A DNA stretch of 64,000 bases. Origin: Watersipora subatra. Taxonomy: Eukaryota > Bryozoa > Gymnolaemata > Cheilostomatida > Watersiporidae. Positions within the stretch are counted from its first letter, which is position 1. Each line of letters begins with the position of its first letter. Where the stretch lies: contig NC_088717.1 in NCBI RefSeq assembly GCF_963576615.1, positions 37,018,802 through 37,082,801 on the forward strand, in the 5' to 3' direction. Shown here in pieces: positions 898-43,013 of this stretch. The position numbers and the translations under genes are program-made. Under the pieces are notes generated by a model that worked only from the letters and a program-made list of their open reading frames with translations, had not been told where the DNA came from and made no database searches.

Positions 898-3800
898 ATG
901 CAAGCACTCTGTACTCTTCTCTTCCTGCCTGTCACATCAATGCCATTGGGGATGCAGCTAAGTCAAGTCCACTGGCAGAAGAATCTGTGGATAAATTAAA
1001 ATCTTCAGCATTACTGGATTCTGCCAGTACTTTAGGTCTGCAGAACAGCAATCCGGCAGCGGTTAGCACTGCTGTGACTAGTCATGGGTCAGCAATGGTG
1101 AGGCCTAGGCAGTCCTCCAGGCTTCAGCAAATGGCCAAAGATTCTGTGGAAGATGATAGCGGTGAGACATCACAAACGGACACTCAGTCACTTATTAGGA
1201 GCGTACAGAAGGTGGGAGTGGTGTCACCTGTTGATAATGGTCAAGTCTTAACACATGATACAAACAAAGGTACATCTCTTGAATACCTTTCCAAATTGCC
1301 AGAATCTTCACCAGAGCAAATCATTCGAGCTCCTCTCAATACGACAGAAAGTAGGGAGAGCGCAGAGGATGCACAGAGCAAACACATTATCCAAAACAAA
1401 GATAATGCCCATAATGAAAAGTGTTCCCACAGCAAAGACAATGATCTGAGCAAAGAGGGTGCCCAGAGGGAACAAGGTTCCCTGAGCAAAGAGGGTGCCC
1501 AGAGTGAACAAGATTTCCTGAGCAAAGAGGGTTCCCAGAGTGAACAAGGTTCCCTGAGCAAAGAGGGTTTCCAGAGTGAACAAGGTTCCCTGAGGAAAGA
1601 GGGTGCCCAGAGTGAACAAGATTCCCTGAGCAAAGAGGGTGCCCAGTTTGACGAAGATTCCTTGAGTAAAAAGGTTACCCTTAGTAAAAAGGGTGCCCAG
1701 TCTAAAGAGGGTGCTTTGGATAAAGAAGGTGCCTTCAGTAAAGATGGTTCTCTGAGTAAAGAGGGTGCCCTCAGTAAAGAGGGTGCCCTCAGTAAAGAGG
1801 GTGCCTTCAGTAAAGGGTATGCCCTCAGTGAAAAGGGTGCCCTAAGTGACGACGATGCGCAGAGCGGAAAGGGCAAAGTCTTTAGCAGTTCAGCAAAAGA
1901 TAAAACAAACAGCATTCCTGAGTAAGTAATCTCATTTTTTACCATCGTGTAAGTTGCTGCAAGGGTTGGTTTAATGTTCTCCACCCAAAATAGTTGGCAA
2001 AGCCAAAGATCGATAATTTATAGATATTTAGTTTGACATTGACCTTGAAACTGTTTTTCAAAAAAACAAAGAGTAAGAGTATGGAACATGTTTGACATAT
2101 TTGCCTTTGATTTCAGAATAGTAGCCCTAGTATGATGTTTTTGTATCATTACACACCACCTCTTCTTCATTGGACTGCATTCACTCTCTTAGTTCATATG
2201 AAACTCTATTTTGCATTTACTGGGTTCAATTACCTGCCATGACAATCAGTGCACAGTGGGACTTGTTGACGCAGACGTTCTAGCGCCGGACTTTTGGTGT
2301 AACGATTTCTAGTACAGGCTCCAAGTTCAGAATTTATCCAACTTTCGTCGTGGCTCATGGCTCAATAAGTTTCAAGTAAAAGTGGAAGGGAAAAATGTGC
2401 CCATAATGGCTACATTTACACATTTGACAGATACAATTCTCAAGATCCTTCAATGGATTTTTGGCGATGTGAACAAAAAACAATAGATGCGGCTTACGAG
2501 CAGTTTTTTATGTACTTTAAAGAAAAAAGTATTCTGTGTGAAGTTTTATGAAAGAAAACCTTTGTTTTTTACAAAAGCAAATGATGATAATAACAAAATA
2601 CATTGTTATTATCATCGTTTTATTTGTTTACTGTATATAAGCATAAATAATTTATTCAGTGCGAAAATAGCAGCACAAAACAGTCTAGGGACAAAAGGTC
2701 TGGCGCCAAAAGGTTTTGCATTAGAAAGTTTTGGTCAGAACGTCCTAGACCACAATCAGTGATAGGTGAGGCAGACAGCAAATGCATACAGCTTACATGC
2801 TATAATTTATAGGGACACAGAAATATAATGTATAGTAACACAGAAGTATAATGTATAGTGAAAGAGAAGTATAATGTATAGTGACACAGAAGTATAATGT
2901 ATAGTAACACAGAAGTACAATGTATAGTGACACAGAAATATAATGTATAGTGACACAGAAGTATAATGTATAGTGACACAGAAGTATAATGTATAGTGAC
3001 ACAGAGGTATAATGTATAGTGACACAGAAATATAATGTATAGTGACACAGAAGTATAATGTATAGTGACACAGAAGTATAATGTATAGTGACACAGAGGT
3101 ATAATGTATAGTGACACAGAAGTATAATGTATAGTGACACAGAAGTATAATGTATAGTGACACAGAAGTATAATGTATAGTGACACAGAGGTATAATGTA
3201 TAGTGACACAGAGGTATAATGTATAGTGACACAGAAGTACGTATAATGTATAGTGACACAGAAGTATAATGTATAGTAACACAGAAGTATAATGTATAGG
3301 GACACAGAAGTATAATGTATAGTGACACAGAAGTATAATGTATAATGACACAGAAGTATAATGTATAGAGACACAGAAGTATAATGTATAGTGACACAGA
3401 AGTATAATGTATAGTGACACAGAAGTATAATGTATAGTAACACAGAAGTATAATGTATAGTGACACAGAAGTATAATGTATAGAGACACAGAAGTATAAT
3501 GTATAGTGACACAGAAGTATAATGTATAGTGACACAGAAGTATAATGTATAGTGACACAGAAGTATAATGTATAGTGACACAGAGGTATAATGTATAGTG
3601 ACACGGAAGTATAATGTATAGTGACACAGAAGTATAATGTATAGTGACACAGAAGTATAATGTTTAGTGACACAGAAGTATAATGTATAGAGACACAGAA
3701 GTATAATGTATAGTGACACAGAAGTATAATGTATAGTGACACAGAAGTATAATGTATAGTGACACAGAAGTATAATGTATAGTGACACAGAAGTATAATG

Positions 3801-6800
3801 TATAGAGACACAGAAGTATAAGGTATAGTTTCACAGAAGTATAATGTATAGTGACACAGAAGTATAATGTATAGTGACACAGAAGTATAATGTTTAGTGA
3901 CACAGAAGTATAATGTATAGAGACACAGAAGTATAATGTATAGTGACACAGAAGTATAATGTATAGTGACACAGAAGTATAATGTATAGTGACACAGAAG
4001 TATAATGTATAGTGACACAGAAGTATAATGTATAGTGACACAGAAGTATAATGTATAGTGACACAGAAGTATAATGTATAGTGACACAGAAGTATAATGT
4101 TTAGTGACACAGAAGTATAATGTATAGAGACACAGAAGTATAATGTATAGTGACACAGAAGTATAATGTATAGTGACACAGAAGTATAATGTATAATGAC
4201 ACAGAAGTATAATGTATAGTGACACAGAAGTATAATGTATAGAGACACAGAAGTATAAGGTATAGTGACACAGAAGTATAATGTATAGTGACACAGAATT
4301 ATAATGTATAGTAACACAGAAGTATAATGTATAGTGACACAGAGGTATAATGTATAGTGACGCAGAAGTATAAGGTATAGTGACACAGAAGTATAATGTA
4401 TAAAGACACAGAAGTATAATGTATAGTGACACAGAAGTATAGGCCTAATGTATAGAGACACAGAATTATAATGTATAGTAACACAGAAGTATAATGTATA
4501 GTGACACAGAAGTATAATGTATAGTGACACAGAAGTATAATGTATAGAGACACAGAAGTATAATGTATAGAGACACAGAAGTAACTATTAATAGTAGAAC
4601 ATGAGATGATGCAGTAACTGCAGCTTTGCTATATATTACTGCTGGTATATTTAGGCAAATCGCTTCTAATTATATTTATTTATAGAATTATTTCCAATTT
4701 GTCTTTTTTATTTAGAAACTTATGATATTTGTTTGTAGAAATTCACTTACATGGATGTGTAATCGTCTGGGATTACCTGATATATTCACTCTGTATACGA
4801 ATGATTTTAAGGACTGCCCACTCCTTGACAATAAGGTAAGATTCCAAGACAATCACAAATGTAATAGCCTGTTTTGTACAAAAAAAAGCATATTGTTTTA
4901 CCTTAATTAATGTCAGATATGAGAGAAAGTTTACCGTTTCGGAGATGTGTACCCTTGGCTGTGGACTTCCTTATCTTGCCAGCTATTTGAGTTTAGAAAC
5001 TCAGACAGACCTGTGGCTTGTTAGAACTGAACCTGTTCTTGTTGTGACATATTAGGTTGGATTGGCTACTGGTGTGGGTGTGGATGTGGTTATCGATAAG
5101 AAACCAGAAAATATTTCATCTATGCCTCTGGACACTATAGTGCTTACATCCCCTCCAAAGCTGCCCCCGGTACCAGCAGCTGCCAAGGTAACATCTTGTA
5201 ACGACCTTTTTAATCCAGTTAATTGTATTCACCTATATTCATTCATTTGCAGCATTTATGTCAGCTTGTTGCATTCTGACATATAGTCATCCCTCTGCAC
5301 AAGAAGTTGATTCGCTTCTATGTCTGCTGCAATTGCTTACAGTTGTATGTTGGAGCAAAAATTATAAAAATAATATTATTTGCTATAATAAAAGCTGTAG
5401 CCGTTCATCTGAAGCCAGCATTGGAGGTTGGGTAATAACATTGCACCTTACGAGAATCATTTTAATCATTCTAGAACCAGAACCACTAAGAACTATCAGA
5501 CTCATTAATCATTCTAGGCGTCCCTATAATAGAATCCTTGAAAGTAATCCTTCACTTTCATGGATTCTACTATAATAGGGAGTTATTGTACATATACTTA
5601 CTCCCTGTGCTTTATTGATACTCCAGATGATTTCTGGCGGCACTCTAAACTGTCAGGGTACTAGTATGTATAATTTATAATATTGTAATTCATTTTACAG
5701 CCAGGAAGATGACCTTGTACAATATTTTAGTTGATTTTATTAGAAAGTATCGGTATTATTTTATCATTTGTGATTGTCTTTGATGTTTGAGGTGATCTGA
5801 CTGCCAAGATGTTTTAGGATTAGAATACATAGTTTACCTAACTTTATGGCAAGTACATAGTCTACCTTACTCTATGGCAAGTACATAGTCTGCCTAACTC
5901 TATGGCAAGTACATAGTCTACCTAACTCTATGACAAGTACATAGTCTACCTTACTCTATGGCAAGTACATAGTCTACCTAACTCTATGACAAGTACATAG
6001 TCTACCTTACTCTATGGCAAGTACATAGTCTGCCTAACTCTATGGCAAGTACATAGTCTACCTAACTCTATGACAAGTACATAGTTTACCTAACTCTATG
6101 GCAAGTACATATTCTACCTAACTCTATGACAAGTACATAGTCTACCTAACTATATGGAAAGTACATAGTCTACCTAACTCTATGGAAAGTACATAGTCTT
6201 CCTAACTCTATGGAAAGTACATAGTCTGCCTAACTCTATGACAAGTACATAGTCTACCTAACTCTATGGCAAGTACATACTCTATATCACTCTATGGAAA
6301 GTACATAGTCTACCTAACCCAATAGCCAGTACATAGCCTCAATCCTTAAATGTTATATTTTATTGTAGCAAGAGTGCTCAGGTGGTCTCATCTCAAAACT
6401 AGAGCTACATCCAAATGATATATTCACTCAGGCTTGGTAACCTGGAAGAATGATTAATACAGACTGACTTGTTTGCAAATGAAAACTGGATTTTTCATGA
6501 CCTTTTATGTGCATAAAAGGAACATCCTTAATATTCGAGTAACAGCAATGTTTATATTTAGGCGTTTCCATAAATAATAACTTGACATTTAGAGTTATTT
6601 GATGCCAACTACACATGCACATTATAAAATTCTTTGAATTGATGCAGTACTTTCTTGACTTTCAGATGAATGATGGGACATCACAAAATGTCCCATCATT
6701 TATGCATGTTGCACTTCATAGCTCCGGAGCTACCTTTTTGAAAGCAGTAAATTTTATATTATCTGAAAGTCAAGAAAGTACTGCATCAATTAATTTAAAG

Positions 6801-19987: not shown

Positions 19988-21547
19988 AGAATGACAAAAA
20001 AAAGTCTCTGGCTGAAAAAGCCTGAAATATCACCAGACCAATTTTCAGATCGTATGTTATAACTGCAAGCTGGGGGATGGACCTATCAGCTCGCTACAAG
20101 TATTTAAGCAACCAAACAAATTTATTTGTAGAAATCATTGATGACTTAAAAACAGTCTCACGATATGAATGCATTAGCAACTGGTTGAACCGTTTTTAAA
20201 CACGCTGCTGTACGGGTAGATCTCACTCAACCTAACACGATCTACTTCTATCCAACGAATGTCGACATAAAACTTGCCAAGTGTCTAGCCAGTTGATTGG
20301 TTGATCTATAAAAAAATTTGCAGCTAACTGCTACCAATCCTCAAAGCATTTTATGTTAAAAGATTTTTGTATGAACCAACTTCGTCTTACTGCAAAAATA
20401 CTTTGTAAATTTAACAACTGAACAATATTTGTTGAAACATTTATGACAGACACTTTGTTTTGATATACATGTACTTCATTGCCAAAAATTAATGGAGATT
20501 GACCAAAGTAAACACAACTTATTTTATTCATTATACCAATTTGTAACTTTTTGCTGCTTAATTAATGTATTTTATTTTGTTTTGTATTTTGTAATTGGCA
20601 ATTGGCAATTGGCAAGCACCTTTTTAAGCATGTTTAAAAATAATGAGCAAAGAGCATCCTTGTTTCTTTGCGAGGCAGAATGTTGAAACATACTGACAAC
20701 TCGATGATTGGTTACTGATGGATATAGATCAAGTTGCTACAAATGCCTTTAAATGATAATTTTCTTACCATGCTGAGAGCATTCCTTTCACACAAAATGA
20801 TAGCAAAAACTCGTTAGAATGTCTATTATATACTTACTATAAGACCTTATCGTAAGGTGAAAACAATTCTGTATGATTTTTACTTGGTAGAATCATACCA
20901 CCGCTTTTGGTTTTTCTTAAGCAGTCCTTAAATTAGTGCCTTAACAAAATACTCAAAAGAAATTTATTCAGCAAATTATAACTTACATTTGCAATATCTT
21001 TGTTGTAAGCAAATAGAATAACACCGATCTTAAATCATTTCTTGGTTTAAGTTGTACATTTATATTTAGTTTATATTTATAAATGTGGTTCTACGATTGT
21101 TGCCATGCAAGGTTTTTGAGTTGTCATGCAAGATGTGTTATACGACATTTTACTGCTGATACTAGAAAACTGACAGATAATAGCAAATATCATAAGATGC
21201 AAAACTGATTCTACGATGACAAACCGCAGAAAGTTCAAATTAGATATGTAAGCACACTGTCACCAGTTATCTAACAACTTATTCAGAAACAATGCCTTGT
21301 GTAATGGAATAGAGTGGCTTTCATAATGTGACAATAGAAGAACAAAGGACCTATTCCAAATACTTTAATAATATCAACTAACAACTACACTATAACAACT
21401 GAAGCTACAGCAAGTCAGTTTTGTAGTTAACCACATGTTAGGGCAATAAATAATTCTGAAAAAAACATGATTTGGAGTTCAAATAGTCATAGTATGACCA
21501 ACAACTGAGTCAAGTCATGATAAAATCTCCAGTAACTCAAATGACCA
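19988..21547. other. Non-coding stretch upstream of nuclease copy A
   Basis: AT-rich sequence with no supported gene. About 20125-20290 is the second copy of the repeat noted in the nuclease intron. It presumably includes the nuclease promoter, but I see no diagnostic element. Confidence 0.4.
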
Positions 21548-21925
21548 CAGTTGATAGTAGACTATGAGTATATCAGGGTGTAACCTCTTAGAGAGATGAT
21601 AATATAAACTCAACCTACTACAATTGATAGTAGACTATGAGTATATCAGTGTAACTCCTTAGAGAGATGATAATATAAACTCAACCTACTACAGTTGATA
21701 GTAGACTATGAGTATATCAGTGTAACTCCTTAGAGAGATGATAATATAAAATCAACCTACTACAGTTGATAGTAGACTATGAGTATATCAGGGTAACTCC
21801 TTAGAGAAATGATAATATAAACTCAACCTACTACTGTAACAGTTGATAGTAGACTATGAGTATATCAGTGTAACTCCTTAGAGATAGGATAATATAAACT
21901 CAACCTACCACAGTTGATAGCAGAG
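21548..21925. repeat. ~74-bp tandem repeat, five to six units
   Basis: Units carry gttgatagtagactatgagt, ctccttagagagatgataat and ataaactcaacctacta. The copies are very similar, indicating recent amplification. It is absent from block B. The stretch 21926-22770 shows no gene. Confidence 0.9.
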
Positions 21926-22770
21926 TATGAATACAACAGCCTAGCCTAACTCGATACCTTTGAAACTGACACAATGCACCAAATAAAGTAGAATGAATGA
22001 ATTTAATTAGAAAATAATAGTACTGTTTCTTCTCATGTTATAATAAAGGCAGGCCAACAGTGTCTATCTACAAAAAGCTTTGTTTAAAATAGGCTTTTTC
22101 TATTATAGAACGAGTTCTCTATTAGCAGCAATCAGAGAGCGGAAAGTAAAGACTCGATGTGAAAACCAAGTAGACAGTTTTGTCGCATAAATTTGCCCAA
22201 ATGAAACAATTGAAACTGTTAACTGTTAAAAGCTGTCACATTGTACTTGCATTTTTAGTCATTCAGTTAAATACCTTGACAGTTATTACCAAACTTTCTA
22301 AACTGTAATAACTGTAAGTAATACAATGAATAGAAATTACCGTATCTATGGTACAAATCTCCAGTCAAATGCTACCTATAAGGTTTTACGTCAGTATAAG
22401 ATTCAGCGTTACTTCTAACAAAAGGACAATGTTGTTCTGGAAATCTGAGATTGGGAGAAAATATTAAATTTCACATTATTTAGTATGGTATGTTTATTCA
22501 AAGAAAACATTTAGCCAGTGTTTTGTTTAGTGAGTTGCAGTAGGCTAATGATTAGTGTGTGAGCTGTAGACAGCAATGTTTGGTTAACTCCTATAAAAGT
22601 GCATTAGTAGGGGCAGTAATGACACCCATTCAAAAATGACGAAAGGTGTTAAGGTACAACTCAGTGCCATAAAAACATGTTTCTCACAAGTCTGGAAGAT
22701 GTGAGACTATTTACAAAACATGTTTCAAAGGTATTGTCCACTTGATTGCTATGCTCATACATACATGTAT

Positions 22771-22938
22771 GTGTATATATATATATGTATATATATATAT
22801 ACAAAATTGTTTCCTCACCCCGGATACCCCGGATACCCCGTATGGGTGGTAAATTCTGCTCTAACTCGGGTCTCCTACCAGAGACCTGAGAGTTTGAGAT
22901 ATTATATATATATATATGATTATATATATATATATATA

Positions 22939-22970
<32 letters not shown>
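22771..22970. repeat. TA microsatellites flanking a short CCGGATAC-repeat segment
   Basis: Two alternating TA tracts (about 22771-22802 and 22903-22970) bracket about 100 bp that includes ccccggataccccggatacc. The second tract directly abuts the first hammerhead monomer. Confidence 0.85.
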
Positions 22971-22972
<2 letters not shown>

Positions 22973-23092
22973 TTGAGCACTCTGGTGCCAGCACATTGAT
23001 TTTCTTAAAGTCTGTGAGGCAACCTAGTTGTTTCATGGCAGGAAATCAACTCTCATTGGTAATGGGATTTGTGTCCCTTGCCTAAGCTCTGA

Positions 23093-23138
23093 GCTGCACT
23101 GATGAGGCTTCAATAGCCGAAACAGTACTGTCTGTAGC
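23093..23138 (+). ncRNA. Hammerhead ribozyme 1 (type I)
   Basis: Core CTGATGA (23099-23105), stem II GGC/GCC around TTCAATA, GAAAC (23119-23123), a minimal stem III (ACA/TGT with loop GTAC) and cleavage triplet GTC ending at 23132. Stem I pairs GCTGCA (23093-23098) with TGTAGC (23133-23138), one G-U pair. Beyond an internal loop CTC/GAG can extend it. Confidence 0.88.
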
Positions 23139-23348
23139 ATGAGTATATGCTCCTTTACTTCGGTTTGGTTGAGCACTCTGTGAGAGGTGCTGCACTATTA
23201 GCCTTTGTGCAAAGCTCATCACTTTTGTGATTTGAGCACTCTGGTGCCAGCACATTGATTTTCTTAAAGTCTGTGAGGCAACCTAGTTGTTTCATGGCAT
23301 GAAATCAACTCTCATTGGTAATGGGATTTGTGTCCCTTGCCTAAGCTC

Positions 23349-23645
23349 CTGCAGTGGAATGTCACCACTTTGCGTAGAATTATCTCCTCCCGATCAGTTT
23401 CACCAGCTTGTCTCAACTTTAAATACTCAGTTCCTTTTCGTTTGACTTAACTCGTTGTCATTATTAGTTTGATTTCATAATCTTGTGGCTCCCAAGACAA
23501 AGTGAAGAGGGTGATTGGGGTTCGACTCCCTACTTTGGGCGGGTTACGGTAACATCATCTTGCATTAATCTAATTCAATTACTTTAATGCGAAGGGTTAG
23601 ACCATAACACAAGTTGTTTTTTGTTGTGCTTTAACTTAAAAAAAG
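23349..23645 (+). mobile_element. SINE-like retroposon inside the hammerhead array
   Basis: The 297-bp insertion ends in an A-rich tail (ttaaaaaaag) and is flanked by a perfect 15-bp duplication, cccttgcctaagctc, at 23334-23348 and 23646-23660. It carries ggggttcgactccc, a B-box-like promoter motif. A target duplication of this length with an A tail is the hallmark of LINE-mobilised retroposition. Confidence 0.85.
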
Positions 23646-23663
23646 CCCTTGCCTAAGCTCTGA

Positions 23664-23709
23664 GCTGCACTGATGAGGCTTCAATAGCCGAAACAGTACT
23701 GTCTGTAGC
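23664..23709 (+). ncRNA. Hammerhead ribozyme 2 (type I)
   Basis: Same core as the first copy with no substitutions, stem I arms at 23664-23669 and 23704-23709. It lies just after the SINE-like insertion, which splits the monomer but leaves the ribozyme intact. Confidence 0.88.
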
Positions 23710-23928
23710 ATGAGTATATGCTCCCTTACTTCGGTTTGGTTGAGCACTCTGTGAGAGGTGCGGCACTATTAGCCTTTGTGCAAAACTCATCACTTTTGTG
23801 ATTTGAGCACTCTGGTGCCAGCACATTGATTTTCTTAAAGTCTGTGAGGCAACCTACATGTAGTTGTTTCATGGCAGGAAATCAACTCTCATTGGTAATG
23901 GGATTTGTGTCCCTTGCCTAAGCTCTGA

Positions 23929-23974
23929 GCTGCACTGATGAGGCTTCAATAGCCGAAACAGTACTGTCTGTAGC
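23929..23974 (+). ncRNA. Hammerhead ribozyme 3 (type I)
   Basis: Identical core and stem arms (23929-23934 with 23969-23974). The monomer breaks off 3 bp later into a TA microsatellite, so this is the last unit of the array. Confidence 0.88.
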
Positions 23975-23976
23975 AT

Positions 23977-24009
23977 GAGTATATATATATATATATATAA
24001 TATATATAT

Positions 24010-24055
<46 letters not shown>

Positions 24056-24058
24056 AAT
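23977..24058. repeat. TA microsatellite between hammerhead array and LINE
   Basis: Alternating TA tract with a few TG and AC interruptions, joining the last hammerhead monomer to the 3' end of the LINE fragment. Confidence 0.9.
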
Positions 24059-24069
24059 ATAGAATTGAA

Positions 24070-24760
24070 ATAGTATCTTTGGACAAGTAGAAAATTGGAC
24101 AGTAGAAACTTGGGCAGTAGAAACTTCAAGATCTTAGCTGTTTCCAATAGCTCACTTTTCTGCAACTCACTTGATTTGATTGCTGCCGGTATCTGGGCAA
24201 GCCACAGTTTATGCGCAGGTGTTATGGTGCCCAGTGCCCCAATGACTACTGGAATTACAGTTGTTCTTACATCCCAGTATTCTTCAATCTCTTCTCTAAG
24301 AGGGAGATACTTCTCCACTTTTTCTTTCCTGGCTATATAATTCTAGTCATTGGGTACTGCTATATCTATTATAGTACCCTCTTGTTCTCTTTATCCACCC
24401 CGACTATATCTGGTTGGTTTGTTAGGATATGCTTGTCAGTCCGGATGTAGAAGTTCCAGAGGATCTTAGCATGGTCATTTTCATTAACCTTATTAGGAGC
24501 TTCCCATCAGTGTTGTGGTTTATTAAAGCCATACTCATCGCATAGACTTCTGCACACAAAATCTGCAAATTATGCCGCTCAGTGTATGCATATCCTGCTA
24601 GCTGCTTGCATCCACTGGTGATGTGTTGCATGGTCTCAGGTGCATCTTTGCACAGTCTGTATCTAGGATCGTTTCTAGTGTGATAGTGGTACCCTGCTTT
24701 CGTTACCCTGCTAATTATTAGCAGCTGGCATCTTGTTAATGATATTGTCCATAAGTTTTT
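24070..24760 (-). mobile_element. 3' fragment of an R2-superclade LINE (restriction-like endonuclease)
   Basis: Reading the minus strand from about 24700 to 24100 in shifting frames gives RLCKDAPETMQHITSGC (CX2C...HX4C knuckle), then a Trp-containing KILWNFYIRTDKHI, NQPDIVGVDKE with a downstream IIDIAVPND (PD...D endonuclease core), then WDVRTTVIPVVIGALGTI. This order is diagnostic of the C-terminus of non-LTR elements with a restriction-like endonuclease (R2, R4/Dong, NeSL types). The reverse transcriptase is missing and frames are broken, so it is a dead 5'-truncated copy. Its 3' end abuts a TA microsatellite. Confidence 0.8.
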
Positions 24761-24834
24761 TCACCCTTGGGTCAAGGTCAAAGTGCATGTCTTCTTCAAT
24801 TCATTAGTCAACACAAGATGGTGTATGTGCTAGT

Positions 24835-25330
24835 TCCGTGTGTGTCTTCTATGTGGCTTCAGTGTGTGCTAGCTCCTTGTGTGCTAGCTCCTTGTGTGCT
24901 AGCTCCTTGTGTGCTAGCTCCTTGTGTGCTAGCTCCGCGTGTGCTAGCTCCGCGTGTGCTAGCTCCGCGTGTGCTAGCTCCGCGTGTGCTAGCTCCGCGT
25001 GTGCTAGCTCCGCGTGTGCTAGCTTCGCGTGTGCTAGCTCCGCGTGTGCTAGCTCCGCGTGTACTAGCTCCGCGTGTACTAGCTCCGCGTGCTAGCTCCG
25101 TGTGTGCTAGCTCCGCGTGTGCTAGCTCCGCGTGTGCTAGCTCCGTGTGTGTGTGCTAGCTCCGTGTGTGCTAGCTCCGTGTGTGCTAGCTCCGTGTGTG
25201 CTAGCTTCGTGTGTGCTAGCTTCGTGTGTGTGTGCTAGCTCCGTGTGAGTGCTAGCTCCGTGTGTGTGCGTGTGTGTGCGTGTGCGTGTGTGCATGCGCG
25301 CGTGCGTGTATGCGCGTGTGCGTGTGTACT
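24835..25330. repeat. 15-bp minisatellite passing into GT/GC-rich repeat
   Basis: About 28 units of gtgctagctccgcgt, with private variants clustered in runs, then a (gt)n/(gc)n tract from about 25265. Because 15 is divisible by 3, frames stay open and read ASSACASSAC; I regard these as artefacts. It is notably GC-richer than the surroundings. Confidence 0.95.
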
Positions 25331-25689
25331 ACACTCCTCGTTGGTCGAGGTTACTTGTGTGAACTGTTGACTAATTTCATCTACCTCAAGTTACTCATCT
25401 GAGCTACATGTTGTTTAGCGGTAAGAGGCAATTCAGAGCGCATGTTTATTTCCAGTTGACGCATTCTTCCTATATAGCCCCACCTTTGAGGCTCACTCAT
25501 AAAGTAGCACAGCATGAGGTCGTGTTATTAGTCCGATTTCATTTCATTCGCATGGCTTTGGTTACGGGCTACTGGTTTCTTCGTTTTGTTTTCCAGTAGC
25601 CCAATTTTCACTGCCTTGTTCTGGTTCAGCTACGGGCAGCGAAGACCTTGTTTGATCGGGCGACATCAGAGCCGGTATGGCTTTGGTTA

Positions 25690-25829
25690 TTGTACCAATC
25701 ATGGAGGTTTTAGACATTCTATATTACCAAGGGTTTTGTCTAAGGAGCAGCAGAAGGGTGCTGTTGCTGGAGTTTGAACCTAGGACCTGATGGTCACCAT
25801 CCAGATACTTCACCAACTGCGCCATCTGT

Positions 25830-25831
<2 letters not shown>
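25690..25831 (-). mobile_element. tRNA-derived SINE head
   Basis: The minus strand from 25831 begins ggacagatggcgcagttggt (A-box-like tggcgcagttgg) and continues to ggttcaaactcc (B-box), with spacing typical of a tRNA. The body probably continues to about 25400, without a clear end. It lies beside a TA microsatellite (25832-25910). Confidence 0.6.
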
Positions 25832-25883
<52 letters not shown>

Positions 25884-25910
25884 TATGTATATTTATATAT
25901 ATATGTAGCG
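25832..25910. repeat. TA microsatellite
   Basis: Alternating TA tract interrupted by TG and one TTTA, at the right edge of the A-specific repeat cluster. From about 26190 the sequence again matches block B (near 42895). Confidence 0.9.
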
Positions 25911-26549
25911 GTATAGATATCTTGCTATATATTATTTACTATATATTTATTTACTTCATCAGCAATAATTTCATTTCAAATAAAAATTTTATTCAAATTA
26001 TGTCATGCAACAAAATAAAACAAAAAAAGAAAAAAGAGCAACAGCAAGGAGCATATAGTGTTTAAAATACTTTTTTCTGCTGAAAGAACATACATGTATT
26101 AGGTGGAAGATTGTTAAAGTAGCTTGCAATGATATTTTAAGCAATGAAATTCTAACTATAATTATAACTAATTTATAAAAAAAGTTCTACCATGTTGAAC
26201 AAGATTTTTACTTCAGACTTGGCTGGCTTTACATTAATAAAATAGTTTTACAACTACAGAAAAAGAGATTTAATTATGTGATGAATAACAATCAAGCTTA
26301 AGCATAGAGAAAACACATTCGTTCTGATTTTCTCCTATATAATGGACAATACTAACAGAAGAGGCTCATAAAGTGATGTCATGTTAAATGTATAGCTAGA
26401 TGGCATGCTCTGCAGGTAGCAATATTACTCACTAGTTGTCTACACCTGTGAGTCTTCAATAAGAAGGCCTCTATTTTTTTGGTTCTGTTTGGTTCCACTT
26501 ACGTGTGCAGGTCTCAGTTTTGGAACAGAGTCAACTACTTCAATAATTA

Positions 26550-31420: not shown

Positions 31421-31550
31421 GTTCTCTGTTCACCACCCAAAATGGCTGTCAAAGCCAAACAAAAAGTTCTGTGCCAGAAGGTCCTAGACCACAATCAGTG
31501 ATAGGAGGTTGTACTAGTTATGAAATTTAAGGATCAAATGCATACAGCTT

Positions 31551-32438
31551 ACATACTATAATGTATAGTGATACAGAAGTATAATGAATAGTGACACAGA
31601 AGTATAATGTATAGCGACACAAAAGTATAATGTATAGCGACACAGAAGTATAATGTATAGTGACACAGAAGTATAATGTATAGTGACACAGAAGTACTAT
31701 AATGTAAAGTGACACAGAAGTATAATGTATAGTGACACAGAAATATAATGTATAGTAACACAGAAGTATAATGTATAGTGACACAGAAGTATAATGTATA
31801 GAGACACAGAAGTATAATGTATATTGACACAGAAGTATAATGTATAGTGACACAGAAGTACTATAATGTAAAGTGACACAGAAGTATAATTTATAGTGAC
31901 ACAGAAATATAATGTATAGTAACACAGAAGTATAATGTATAGTGACACAGAAGTATAATGTATAGAGACACAGAAGTATAATGTATAGAGACACAGAAGT
32001 ATAATGTATAGAGACACAGAAGTATAATGTATAGAGACACAGAAGTATAATGTATAGAGACACAGAAGTATAATGTATAGTGACACAGAAGGATAATGTA
32101 TAGTGACACAGAAGTATAATGTATAGTGACACAGAAGTATAATGTATAGTGACACAGAAGTATAATGTATAGTGACACAGAAGTATAATGTATAGAGACA
32201 CAGAAGTATAATGTATAGTGACACAGAAAGATAATGTATAGTGACACAGAAGTATAATGTATAGTGACACAGAAGTATAATGTATAGTGACACAGAAGTA
32301 TAATGTATAGAGACACAGAAGTATAATGTATAGTGACACAGAAGTATAATATATAGTGACACAGAAGTATAATGTATAGGGACACAGAAGTATAATGTAT
32401 AGTGGCACAGAAGTATAATGTAGGGTTACAGAAGTAGC
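31551..32438. repeat. 23-bp satellite array, block B (about 38 units)
   Basis: Same unit as the 2811-4584 array, but about half as long. Local doublets of a variant with a tactataatgtaaagtg junction (near 31693 and 31859) show internal duplication of larger blocks. Long minus-strand open frames here are satellite artefacts. Confidence 0.97.
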
Positions 32439-40082: not shown

Positions 40083-40494
40083 AGACCAAATGTAGTATTA
40101 GATTGGTAATAGAGATTGTCACTCATCTCACTTCTTGTCACAGTAAGACAGAAAAGGTTTTTTTCTGGCTGAAACAGCCTGAAATATTATCACATTTATT
40201 TTCAAATAACCTGTTATTTTGATGTAACTATAGAGCATAGTGTTACAATCTTATAGCTCGCTGTTGAAAATACAGAATCTTTTGTCAAGAGTCGAGAGCT
40301 TATTGCTGAAAAGCTAGGGTTCATAATTGCAATCTGAAGGATGGACTTATCAGTTAACTCAAAATATTTGAACAGCCCAAACCAATTTATTAGGTGAAAT
40401 CATTCATGACTTCACAAGGCTCTTAAGGTATGAGCACACTTACAAGTTGTTGAGCATTTTCAAGGCCGATACCATCCAAGTAAATTTCACTCAC

Positions 40495-41900
40495 TGCAAC
40501 TCGATTTATTAATGTCCGGCGTTGCTCGGGTAACATAACTCTTTGCAAAGAAAAATTATTTTTATTTAACATATAACAACGGTTACCATTCTAACTTTCA
40601 AATTTAATATCATGAGAAAAGTGTGGTACAGTTTAAATAAATTAGACAAGACAAAAAAATTACACAAAACAAACAAAAACTGTAGTTTTCAAACTTTGTC
40701 AAGCAAGTTTAATTTTCAAACTTCATTTCACGAAAAAAATGTTTTGTGCAGGTCAAATAAATTGAACAAAATAAAACTACTATAAAAGGGTTTGAATGTA
40801 AATAGGCCTATGCAATAAATAGCAAGTAAAAAGAAACTTAAATCTGTTTTGCTACGATTATGATATAAAAACGATTTGGTAGTACTTTGGAAATTCTAAC
40901 TGATGCCCAAAGCAGTGAAAGTAAAGGGAATAACAATATTTTTTTCTAACGATTCTTATGAGATTATTACAATATTTAATTATAAGTTTGGATGACTATT
41001 GACGTTTTATAGTCACACTAACAACATCGATGATGGGCAGTATGTTACTGTTATTATTTTTGCTAAATGGTTTTGTTAAATAGATTTTCTAAAAATCTAT
41101 ATAAATATCACAACTTTTTGATATTGTTAGCTATGACGTTTTGAAATGTAAACAAAATTGTGCATTGGTTTTCTATTATTACTGTATTACTATATTAATA
41201 ATATTGGTTATTCTAATAATATCAGTGCATTTCACTTCTAATATTGCATTTCTCCTATTGCAGGGGAAGAGATATAAACATATAATCTTTTCCTTTCATT
41301 ATTGCTGTTTGTTGTATATAATAACACCCACACCCAGTACATTACAGCTACCATTGCAGTTATCCTATTGCACTGAAGTGCCATTTGACTGCTAATATTG
41401 CATTTCTCAACCATCAATACCCTTTCTTTTTTCCAATATCACTTTGGTCGTGGGCTGTATGATAGGGGAATTTCTAGTAATAACAATTCGTGCATAAAAG
41501 TGCGAATAAAAAAGTCACTGTTCCAGCAGAAGCTATCCATTAAAAATTTGAATACGACGATACTGGTACCTTTCGATACTGGTACAAATGTAAAAATGAA
41601 ATATCGTACTGTTCTTGTCTGACCCAACGGAAACAGAATGTATAAGCGATTCTTAGTGGAGATAATACAATTATCCGCGTGTACAGATTCGGCCCTGACC
41701 GCAATTTAGCTCTTGAACCTTACGAAAAACCGAAAATAGAAGTTCACGAAAATCATAGCGTTTCATAGAGCTAAATGAGCCAATTCAATTACACACGTAA
41801 TCGCGTTTACCCGCAAATGAGGCATTGGAGCGATACTTTTATTTAAAACATGAGAAGATAACTCTCAGTTTATATTGAACTTTTGAATTAAACAACAGGT
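40495..41900. mobile_element. Dispersed repeat, longer copy with cggcgttgctcgggtaa end
   Basis: Begins gtccggcgttgctcgggtaa, with an internal second copy of the tttgtgcaggtcaaataaat segment (about 40740). Homology with 37120-37860 continues to about 41760. Ends uncertain; open frames up to 84 codons look random. Confidence 0.5.
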
Positions 41901-42534
41901 TAGGGGTAAAAGTTTTGGGAAGGGATTAAATGAGAGAGTAGGGAGAATGCGAGTTAATTGTTAAGACTCCTCACAAAAAAGAATGTTTTTATGTTTGTGT
42001 TAATGATACCTTTGGTACTTTTGTGTCGTGTATGGTGTAGGTGGACATTAGAATAAAAACCTGCAGAGCCAGAGATTGCAATCTCTTCAGTAATGATTTT
42101 GTGTTATAGGTTTTGGTCAGAAGTTCTTTGACACTCTGCAAAAGTGGCCAATGACTACTCAGACGTGAGGTAAAAAATCATGTATCATTTTTCATGGCCA
42201 CTATCTCATTTGTAAAGCAATTTCTCACCTAATTCACCTCATATATCTTAAATATGACAAATCCATTTACACTGGCACTTGCTGAGTGATAGTGCTATAC
42301 TAACAAGCTGACAAATGACACTGGTGAAGTCATAGAACATTTAATCTAATTGTGCGATTCAGTTCATATACATTTGATCAGTGTTTATGTTTTCCTACCA
42401 CAACATTTTTATCATTATTAAATTCAAATTAAACATCAAATTAAATTAGTTGTTGCTTTCAAATTAAAAGTTATTAATTAATATGAAGGTTTAATATCAC
42501 ACATCAATACAAATGTCAATTACATTTTTTGGTA

Positions 42535-42665
42535 CTTACCTACATACATACTTACACACTTACATACTTTTATACTTATATAGGTACTTACATACTTACA
42601 CACTTACATACTTTTATACTTATTTACTTACGTACTCACACACTTACATAATTACATATCTACTT
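42535..42665. repeat. Tandem tacttacatac repeat
   Basis: Degenerate tandem copies of tacttacatacttacacact and variants. Confidence 0.8.
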
Positions 42666-43013
42666 GGACCTCTCACTAAACAGCTATAATTTAATAATCT
42701 GCTGCTTATTAAATCAATGTAACCAGTCAGCTACAGTTATATGTATGCATCATGTTATAAAATATGACAGCTTGAAGAGTGTCATTGACATCAGTAGCAA
42801 ATGCTTTTTTTCAAATTTATGAATTCCTTACTGCTAACAAATGTTTAATTATGATAAATATGTACTGTGTATTATAATATTTAATCTATGTTAAACAAGA
42901 TTCTTACTTCAGATTTACCTGGTTTTACATTAATAAAATAGTTTTGCAACTACAGATCGTGAGGTCTAAATATGTGATGAATAACAATCAGACTAAAGCA
43001 TAGAGAAAACACA

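Follow-up and report, generated by a model that had tools for sequence, protein, structure and literature searches.

Non-LTR retrozymes of metazoans are tandem repeats of 150-450 bp, arranged as dimers up to multimers, that carry type I hammerhead ribozymes (Cervera and de la Pena, 2020; PMC7229834). They lack an LTR, PBS and PPT, show target site duplications in some cases, and give rise to self-cleaving RNA in linear and circular form. Their RNAs measure ~170-400 nt, and the repeats are low in GC, dispersed, and coexist with Penelope-like elements (PLEs) that bear minimal hammerheads; the authors who studied them name PLEs as a strong candidate partner (PMC7229834). A 2020 review states that retrozyme repeats contain no motif by which the partner element could be told (PMC7761336). 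Animal retrozymes are a source of abundant small RNA circles, and the route of these circles back into the genome had been open.

Another related system is the Poseidon PLE of Anolis, in which cDNA starts internally at two sites in an AC-rich stem loop, at AT-rich DNA (Frangieh 2024; PMC11167929). The binding region of its protein presumably falls within the first 172 nt of the frame; in vitro, uncut RNA is used, the ribozyme is not needed, and the start is not homologous to the cut DNA (PMC11167929). The SMalpha/W-elements of Schistosoma are likewise satellite-like repeats with type I hammerheads, and one family is called SINE-like; neither a fixed end nor a PLE hairpin is reported in the part of that work considered here (PMC8490949).

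The repeat described here comes from Watersipora subatra, a member of the Bryozoa, which are not among the phyla named in the available portion of the metazoan survey (PMC7229834). It resembles the metazoan non-LTR retrozymes of that survey in hammerhead type, tandem repeats, GC content and dispersal. To these it adds an insertion end that is constant, flanks of (TA)n, and a hairpin module that PLEs carry as well. With Anolis Poseidon the Watersipora system has in common a hammerhead upstream of an internal start at a stem-loop, a pair of start sites separated by a tail, and AT-rich targets. However, Poseidon is autonomous and coding, unlike the Watersipora retrozyme; its start is AC-rich and lacks homology to the cut DNA, whereas the Watersipora start is TATAT-like and goes with (TA)n flanks; and the Watersipora hairpin is not described for Poseidon in the part of the report considered (PMC11167929). 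The array studied lies in a window of 64,000 nucleotides, the whole stretch of DNA analyzed. It is probably a W. subatra copy of a non-LTR retrozyme that is mobilized in trans by PLEs, via circles primed on (TA)n.

A familiar parallel is provided by SINEs, non-autonomous RNAs which borrow the 3′ end of LINEs and thereby carry the recognition end of an autonomous partner. Like SINEs, the Watersipora retrozyme RNA appears to carry the recognition element of its partner. Unlike SINEs, it would have a PLE as partner, its start is internal, and its RNA would be a ribozyme product, probably in circular form.

The array in the window and its genomic family

The array spans 22970-23984 on the forward strand, or ~2.7 units of a 259-bp repeat (Table 1). 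A first-pass annotation of the same DNA had described three ~259-bp monomers at 22972..23985. Its three hammerheads are present, but the span has been corrected and the array holds just two complete units plus one partial, unit 2 (259 bp in total) lying in two pieces on either side of a 297-bp insert. Only 4 of 259 positions distinguish unit 1 from unit 2, and unit 3 runs into (TA)n after unit position 178. The GC content of unit 1 is 44.8%, below 50% as for metazoan non-LTR retrozymes. Within 22850-24150 no repeat other than (TA)n flanks the array, and hence there is no LTR; the absence of a PBS and PPT was judged by eye.

Table 1. Features of the retrozyme array, in window positions
Feature	Position	Strand	Remark
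(AT)n microsatellite, 5′ flank of the array	22899..22969	.	
Retrozyme array	22970-23984	+	5′ end ~unit position 258/259; 3′ end unit position 178
Unit 1, 259 bp	22971-23229	+	reference for unit positions
Type I hammerhead 1 (stem I GCTGCA ... TGTAGC)	23093-23138	+	predicted cut after 23132
TGTAGCATGAGTATAT, cut site to presumed reverse-transcription start	23133-23148	+	last base is the usual genomic 3′ end
Hairpin HP1 (GCTC...TTGAGCACTCT), unit 1	23149-23179	+	
Hairpin HP2 (GCTC ATCAC TTTT GTGAT TT GAGC ACTCT), units 1/2	23214-23242	+	
Unit 2, first part	23230-23348	+	unit positions 1-119
SINE-like insert in unit 2, 297 bp	23349-23645	+	B-box-like GGTTCGACTCC at 23519, A-run end
Unit 2, second part	23661-23800	+	unit positions 120-259
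Type I hammerhead 2	23664-23709	+	predicted cut after 23703
Hairpin HP1, unit 2	23720-23750	+	GCTCCC variant
Hairpin HP2, units 2/3	23785-23813	+	first base changed (ACTC)
Unit 3, partial	23801-23984	+	184 bp = 178 + 6-bp insertion; stops at presumed reverse-transcription start position
Type I hammerhead 3	23929-23974	+	predicted cut after 23968
(TA)n microsatellite, 3′ flank of the array	23985..24061	.	presumed target/primer side

The insert in unit 2 is read by eye as a SINE because of its B-box-like motif and A-run; ARAGORN found no tRNA genes in the window. It is bracketed by a 15-bp target duplication, CCCTTGCCTAAGCTC, at 23334-23348 and 23646-23660, and would represent a second, different retroelement for which the retrozyme served as target.

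The array sits in the first of two duplicated blocks, A and B. That it occurs only in block A, as first noted, is true; it is uninformative on timing, since nothing in block B (40433-42888) can be aligned with 20168-26192 of block A. Block B was considered as the empty site for the array and ruled out, because homology around the array is absent. The proposal that the array arrived after the duplication or was lost from B is thus unsupported, while the retrozyme anatomy seen at first pass stands. Elsewhere the two blocks align in patches at roughly 73-90% identity, and both begin with a 23-bp satellite (~93% alike) at 2779-4583 and 31535-32436.

Three 34-nt hammerhead cores, at 23099-23132, 23670-23703 and 23935-23968 (+), match exactly, as had been claimed. 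Each comprises a 6-bp stem I (GCTGCA/TGTAGC), a GGC/GCC stem II, a 3-bp stem III with a GTAC loop, and the GTC triplet, which also agrees with the earlier description. Shuffled sequences give an expectation of 0.05 chance matches to the core, and three or more matches occurred in none of 100 shuffles. An Rfam scan of the window returned no family at gathering score, an outcome that the first-pass annotation had named as speaking against its reading and that is weighed less here than the genome-wide pattern. Below threshold, Hammerhead_HH9 was matched on all three cores with 21.7-23.5 bits (cut-off 52; E 0.004-0.016 in 1.2 kb).

Folding predictions support a dimeric hammerhead over a monomeric one, in keeping with the earlier suggestion that the short stem III favors dimers. 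In a monomer the hammerhead fold is predicted at -8.7 kcal/mol against a minimum of -18.3 kcal/mol, and so is not the minimum. With two copies, the predicted minimum (-45.4 kcal/mol) is a double hammerhead joined by a 10-bp palindromic stem III, ACAGUACUGU. The unit folded as a circle is predicted to be more structured than shuffles (z -3.5). In this whole-circle fold, hammerhead pairs have probabilities of 0.01-0.18, and for unit 1 of the window HP1 has a probability of 0.15 and HP2 of 0.98; the low values for the hammerhead and HP1 count against the route proposed below.

The genome searched comprises 783,720,542 bases in 239 contigs. A loose hammerhead pattern matched 1323+1332 times, against 201+219 for the reversed control. 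The 16-mer TGTAGCATGAGTATAT, which runs from the cut site to the usual 3′ end, has 760+764=1524 exact matches genome-wide (control 0). Among these, 753 continue as ATAT, 559 as GCTC (the next part of the unit) and 212 as neither; since the first group includes local clusters, such as ten in 333 bp on contig C2, the 753 matches do not stand for 753 independent insertions. A search with the unit gave 159 matches from 40 scored of 1423 candidates, located on C1-C11 and C13. This bears out the first-pass description of a small mobile repeat of the retrozyme kind, and speaks against the lone duplication of a non-functional copy that a genome-wide monomer search might have revealed. With an intact-core type I hammerhead, 259-bp tandem units, low GC, no LTR and dispersed multiple copies, the repeat is by its anatomy a metazoan non-LTR retrozyme, and it forms a large dispersed family.

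Among the matches listed, a cluster of ~15 units at C5:3505113-3509004 is 98-99% identical to the unit of the window; it is possible that this is a master locus. Matches beginning CTGATGATTACTGC and CTGATGAGTGTTACAC were considered as further retrozymes and rejected, as they sit in fold-back elements (L007, L069, L070).

Fixed 3′ ends, scattered 5′ ends and (TA)n flanks

The ends of 50 distinct arrays were compared, 34 of them from C1:0.3-38.8 Mb and 16 from elsewhere (top identity hits and the window's own). The C1 arrays come from 30 regions, judged family-like by eye, among the first ~100 hammerhead-pattern places listed; this sample was thus selected for the hammerhead core, except for neighbors brought along in L036. 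The counts leave out 21 locus ids that repeat other arrays, including L058-L063, whose array extends past the fetched stretch. L055, from this same array, was retained; as its 5′ end coincides with the stretch's edge, there are 49 5′ starts against 50 3′ ends.

By BLAST alignment, 44 of the 50 arrays end at unit position 178 (GAGTATAT), namely 28 of 34 on C1 and all 16 others. The remaining six align to 171-176, at most 7 nt earlier. This fixed end lies 16 nt beyond the predicted cut site (after unit position 162), and in intact units hairpin HP1 begins directly after the end base. No array (0/50) ends at HP2, which in the retrozyme is preceded by GTGCAAA and not by TATAT. A TA-like 3′ flank follows 25 of 34 C1 arrays and 16 of 16 others, while a TA-like 5′ flank precedes 13 of 34 and 6 of 15, respectively; the background is 1.5% in both cases.

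The 5′ starts are scattered over the unit. Nine of 49 fall in positions 163-178, where ~3 would be expected from an even spread and where the sequence is itself TA-rich, and a single one lies exactly at the cut site. Array lengths range from 64 bp to at least 1937 bp (L055), the longest measured whole being 1564 bp, and half of the C1 arrays (17 of 34) fall short of a complete unit. A search for target duplications in 36 arrays found AT-rich matches of 8-12 nt in five, none of them convincing; TA-rich flanks hide short duplications. Target-primed reverse transcription is recognized, as established for LINEs, by a fixed 3′ end together with truncated 5′ ends. The fixed 3′ ends, scattered 5′ ends and (TA)n flanks of the retrozyme arrays form such a target-primed insertion pattern. 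The fixed end and flanks, together with the PLE-shared hairpin module described below, had been missed at first pass.

A hairpin module common to the retrozyme and PLE-like families

A frame resembling Penelope-type reverse transcriptase, located beside the fold-back element L070, served as the starting query for PLE-like elements. From 1757 candidates the search yielded 150 scored matches, of which many have open frames of 600-820 aa; it also revealed a tandem array with a period of 2455 on C8. Four PLE-like families have long frames: PLE-1 (728 aa; L080), PLE-3 (723), PLE-4 (719) and PLE-5 (714). PLE-2 is represented by truncated copies with frames of 473 (L077) and 232 aa (L075), and the 709-aa frames from the same search are inferred to belong to it. 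The reverse-transcriptase segments of the other families are 51-55% identical to that of PLE-1. The C8 array, at C8:13505461-13533583, consists of at least 10 PLE-1 matches, for the most part spaced by 2455 bp and arranged as two oppositely oriented blocks; eight of the ten matches listed carry the 728-aa frame.

In all five families an HHR-like motif, recognized by pattern, follows the frame and is succeeded by a hairpin-bearing stretch. In the reverse complement of L080, for example, HHR-like motifs at 411 and 2866 lie around the 728-aa frame. HP1 follows the motif in 5/5 families, and HP2 also in four, before the next frame. Tandem copies with a pseudo-LTR-type HHR-like motif, found by pattern, and two internal start sites with an optional tail, read by eye, are seen in these families, and both are features of PLEs. 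PLEs are further characterized by a single frame that joins a telomerase-like reverse transcriptase to a GIY-YIG endonuclease. The label PLE is based on the tandem arrangement, the HHR-like motifs, AT-rich ends with two end points, and reverse-transcriptase motifs read by eye (GLYRDDG). Searches of Pfam, NCBIfam and PDB with the PLE proteins gave no relevant match, profile searches yielded a single sub-cut-off GIY-YIG match (E 0.0079, in one old fragment), and no relatives of PLE-1 were found in viral contigs.

Read by eye, PLE copies end in (AT)n a few bases before the point at which a hairpin begins in uninterrupted sequence. Copies ending at site 1 are L073, L076, L077 and L093; others end at a later site 2 (L089, L091, L095), and the PLE-2 copy L075 also ends at a second, later point. 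In four further families, C-F (L083-L088), the (AT)n end lies some tens of bases past HP1. No long PLE frame was found in the 1.6-1.75 kb fetched for each of these, and an HHR-like match occurs in L086 and L088 only.

The hairpin GCUC-stem-UU-GAGC-ACUCU stands directly after the end base of the retrozyme, and also just after the end points of the five PLE-like families. Copies of PLE-1 stop at TTTATTAGTATAT, with ATATAT next (108 matches, 3 reversed); inside tandems, TTTATTAGTATAT continues as AGCTGCTCCAATATATTTGTTGAGCACTCT. In retrozyme unit 1, GAGTATAT correspondingly continues as GCTCCTTTACTTCGGTTTGGTTGAGCACTCT. The element TTGAGCACTCT is found 20 nt past the start in PLE-1 and 21 nt past it in the retrozyme. 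Genome-wide, TATATN{10,30}TTGAGCACTCT has 1739 matches against 4 in the control, one TA-run place being able to count several times, and GCTCN{6,26}TTGAGCACTCT has 2949 against 4 reversed, a total that includes the retrozyme's own copies. Much of the latter set, among the matches listed, consists of retrozyme HP1 and HP2; the several families listed have a common frame of GCTC, variable stem and loop, TT, GAGC and ACTCT. Two copies of the hairpin, HP1 and HP2, are present in the retrozyme, PLE-1, PLE-3, PLE-4 and PLE-5. PLE-2 shows one (HP1), in which both sides of the outer pair are altered (ACTC/GAGT), and PLE-5 has an outer-stem mismatch in HP1 and an HP2 without TT. The longest word common to the retrozyme unit and the PLE-1 unit is a 12-mer of the hairpin itself; this length was reached in 3 of 2000 shuffles and the local score in 17 of 2000, which is modest taken alone.

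The inner stem of the hairpin covaries, as judged from sequence comparison among families. In a first set of 17 hairpins, 14 from fetched loci and 3 read from the TATATN{10,30}TTGAGCACTCT matches listed, pairing at the first two inner positions is seen in 31 of 34 cells. When 3′ arms were permuted among families, the mean was 18.3 and the maximum 29 in 20000 permutations. Because this set had been assembled while the idea was forming, the count was repeated on a second one. There, 27 of 30 distinct inserts among the GCTCN{6,26}TTGAGCACTCT matches listed have at least two inner pairs. With one hairpin per family (grouped by eye) and misses kept, 16 of 20 cells are paired, a value reached by 14 of 20000 permutations; two of the ten families lack the inner stem. 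By eye, HP1 of the retrozyme closes on a UUCG loop, and one variant, CCGAACTTCGGTTTGG, pairs throughout.

A proposed route into the genome and its alternatives

The observations suggest the following route. Transcripts of an array would be cut into 259-nt units by the type I hammerheads, probably acting as dimers through the palindromic stem III, and the units would then be closed into circles, as in the known pathway. A PLE protein may recognize the hairpins that are common to the retrozyme and the 5′ regions of PLEs. A cut (TA)n tract would pair with the TATAT just 5′ of HP1 and prime cDNA synthesis, which would leave the hairpin behind, pass over the ligated cut site and go round the circle once or more; the parts of this step seen in the genome are the fixed 3′ end and the (TA)n flanks. 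Synthesis could stop anywhere, leaving the scattered 5′ truncation that is observed. The absence of TATAT before HP2, together with the lack of ends there, fits (TA)n priming at a TATAT beside a bound hairpin.

The nature of the template can be narrowed. Genomic copies end at position 178 and contain the joined cut site (162), so a self-cut linear monomer cannot be the template. Where a minor allele is present in at least 4 arrays, multi-unit arrays have it in every unit in 49 cases and in only some units in 4. Units diverge on average by 0.0077 within arrays (78 pairs) and by 0.0415 between them (2925 pairs). Variants private to one array are found in all its units at 5 sites (4 in the old array L036) and are confined to one unit at 33 (19 in L036), so later mutation is common. 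The simpler reading of these sequences is a putative circular RNA template. The identity within arrays also fits, equally well, homogeneous source arrays transcribed as long RNA, and the one 5′ start at the cut site is compatible both with a circle and with uncut RNA.

Uncut RNA is central to another account, in which PLEs insert the repeat from a linear multimer and the hammerhead is dispensable for insertion. In the portion of the Anolis report considered here, insertion persists in ribozyme mutants and the dominant substrate is said to be unprocessed RNA (PMC11167929), and homogeneous source arrays would likewise yield homogeneous copies. However, a linear dimer with its outer sites cut yields, by our own arithmetic, at most ~275 bp ending at 178. 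Many arrays exceed this length, up to 1564 bp whole and at least 1937 bp in L055, and long uncut RNAs should be scarce if the ribozyme is efficient; the account is a tentative possibility that is not favored here. It is rather unlikely that the retrozyme arose from a PLE by internal deletion, as a pseudo-LTR minus the frame, with hairpins due to common descent and not to mimicry. The order of modules is identical in the two (hammerhead, start site, HP1, HP2), and frame-less elements carrying the hairpin exist, but the longest word that the unit has in common with PLE-1 is the 12-mer of the hairpin itself, and the stem II sequences of the retrozyme and PLE hammerheads differ.

Many LINEs use 3′ hairpins, and the PLE proteins of this genome go unrecognized by profile libraries, which leaves some room for a LINE as the mobilizer and for a merely coincidental likeness of the hairpins. 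This is very unlikely, as the hairpin, the position of TATAT and the (AT)n ends are common to elements with a reverse-transcriptase frame in tandem with HHR-like motifs, and GCTCN{6,26}TTGAGCACTCT is matched 2949 times versus 4 reversed. Ordinary satellite DNA, spread by unequal crossing over and bearing a relic hammerhead, would account for tandem structure and for the one ~15-unit cluster on C5. Short arrays spread over the genome, alike in their 3′ end, variable at the 5′ end and bordered by (TA)n, indicate target-primed insertion, not crossing over, and make this the least credible explanation of all.

Mobilization of retrozyme circles by PLEs is therefore the preferred reading for this array, and with somewhat less assurance we lean towards a general form of it. 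The element GCUC-stem-UU-GAGC-ACUYU, located directly 3′ of a TATAT start and usually present twice, would be the cis signal for PLE reverse transcription; retrozyme circRNAs, with their two copies of it, would parasitize PLEs and be copied around the circle in a target-primed manner on (TA)n microsatellites; and animal non-LTR retrozymes would generally be satellites of PLEs. A retrozyme would then be to a PLE what a SINE is to a LINE. What appears new here is a retrozyme whose partner signal is readable from the genome; among the titles and abstract openings listed by searches on retrozymes and PLE hammerheads with stem loops, microsatellites, target sites or bryozoans, none describes such a shared hairpin. 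Through the fixed end, the (TA)n flanks and the covarying shared hairpin, the PLE hypothesis becomes testable at the bench. The hairpin is also a candidate recognition signal for PLEs themselves, whose mechanism is little known according to the part of the Anolis report considered (PMC11167929).

Some further arrangements were seen around these elements. At locus L093, an antisense retrozyme lies just past the 3′ end of a PLE-4 copy, and both end in (TA)n. The fold-back elements L083, L084, L089, L069 and L070 contain a partial or whole HHR-like motif in inverted form, and three of them carry HP1. Palindromes are reported at inverted junctions of PLEs in the portion of an earlier study considered here (PMC3846280). 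Fold-back repeats occur at the junctions of retrozyme arrays, in 10 of 49 at the 5′ side and 9 of 50 at the 3′ side versus 0-3 of 48-50 in four control stretches, a comparison confounded by TA content. Those in 5′ flanks include L023, L026, L044, L051, L053 and L066, and some of their arms enter the element.
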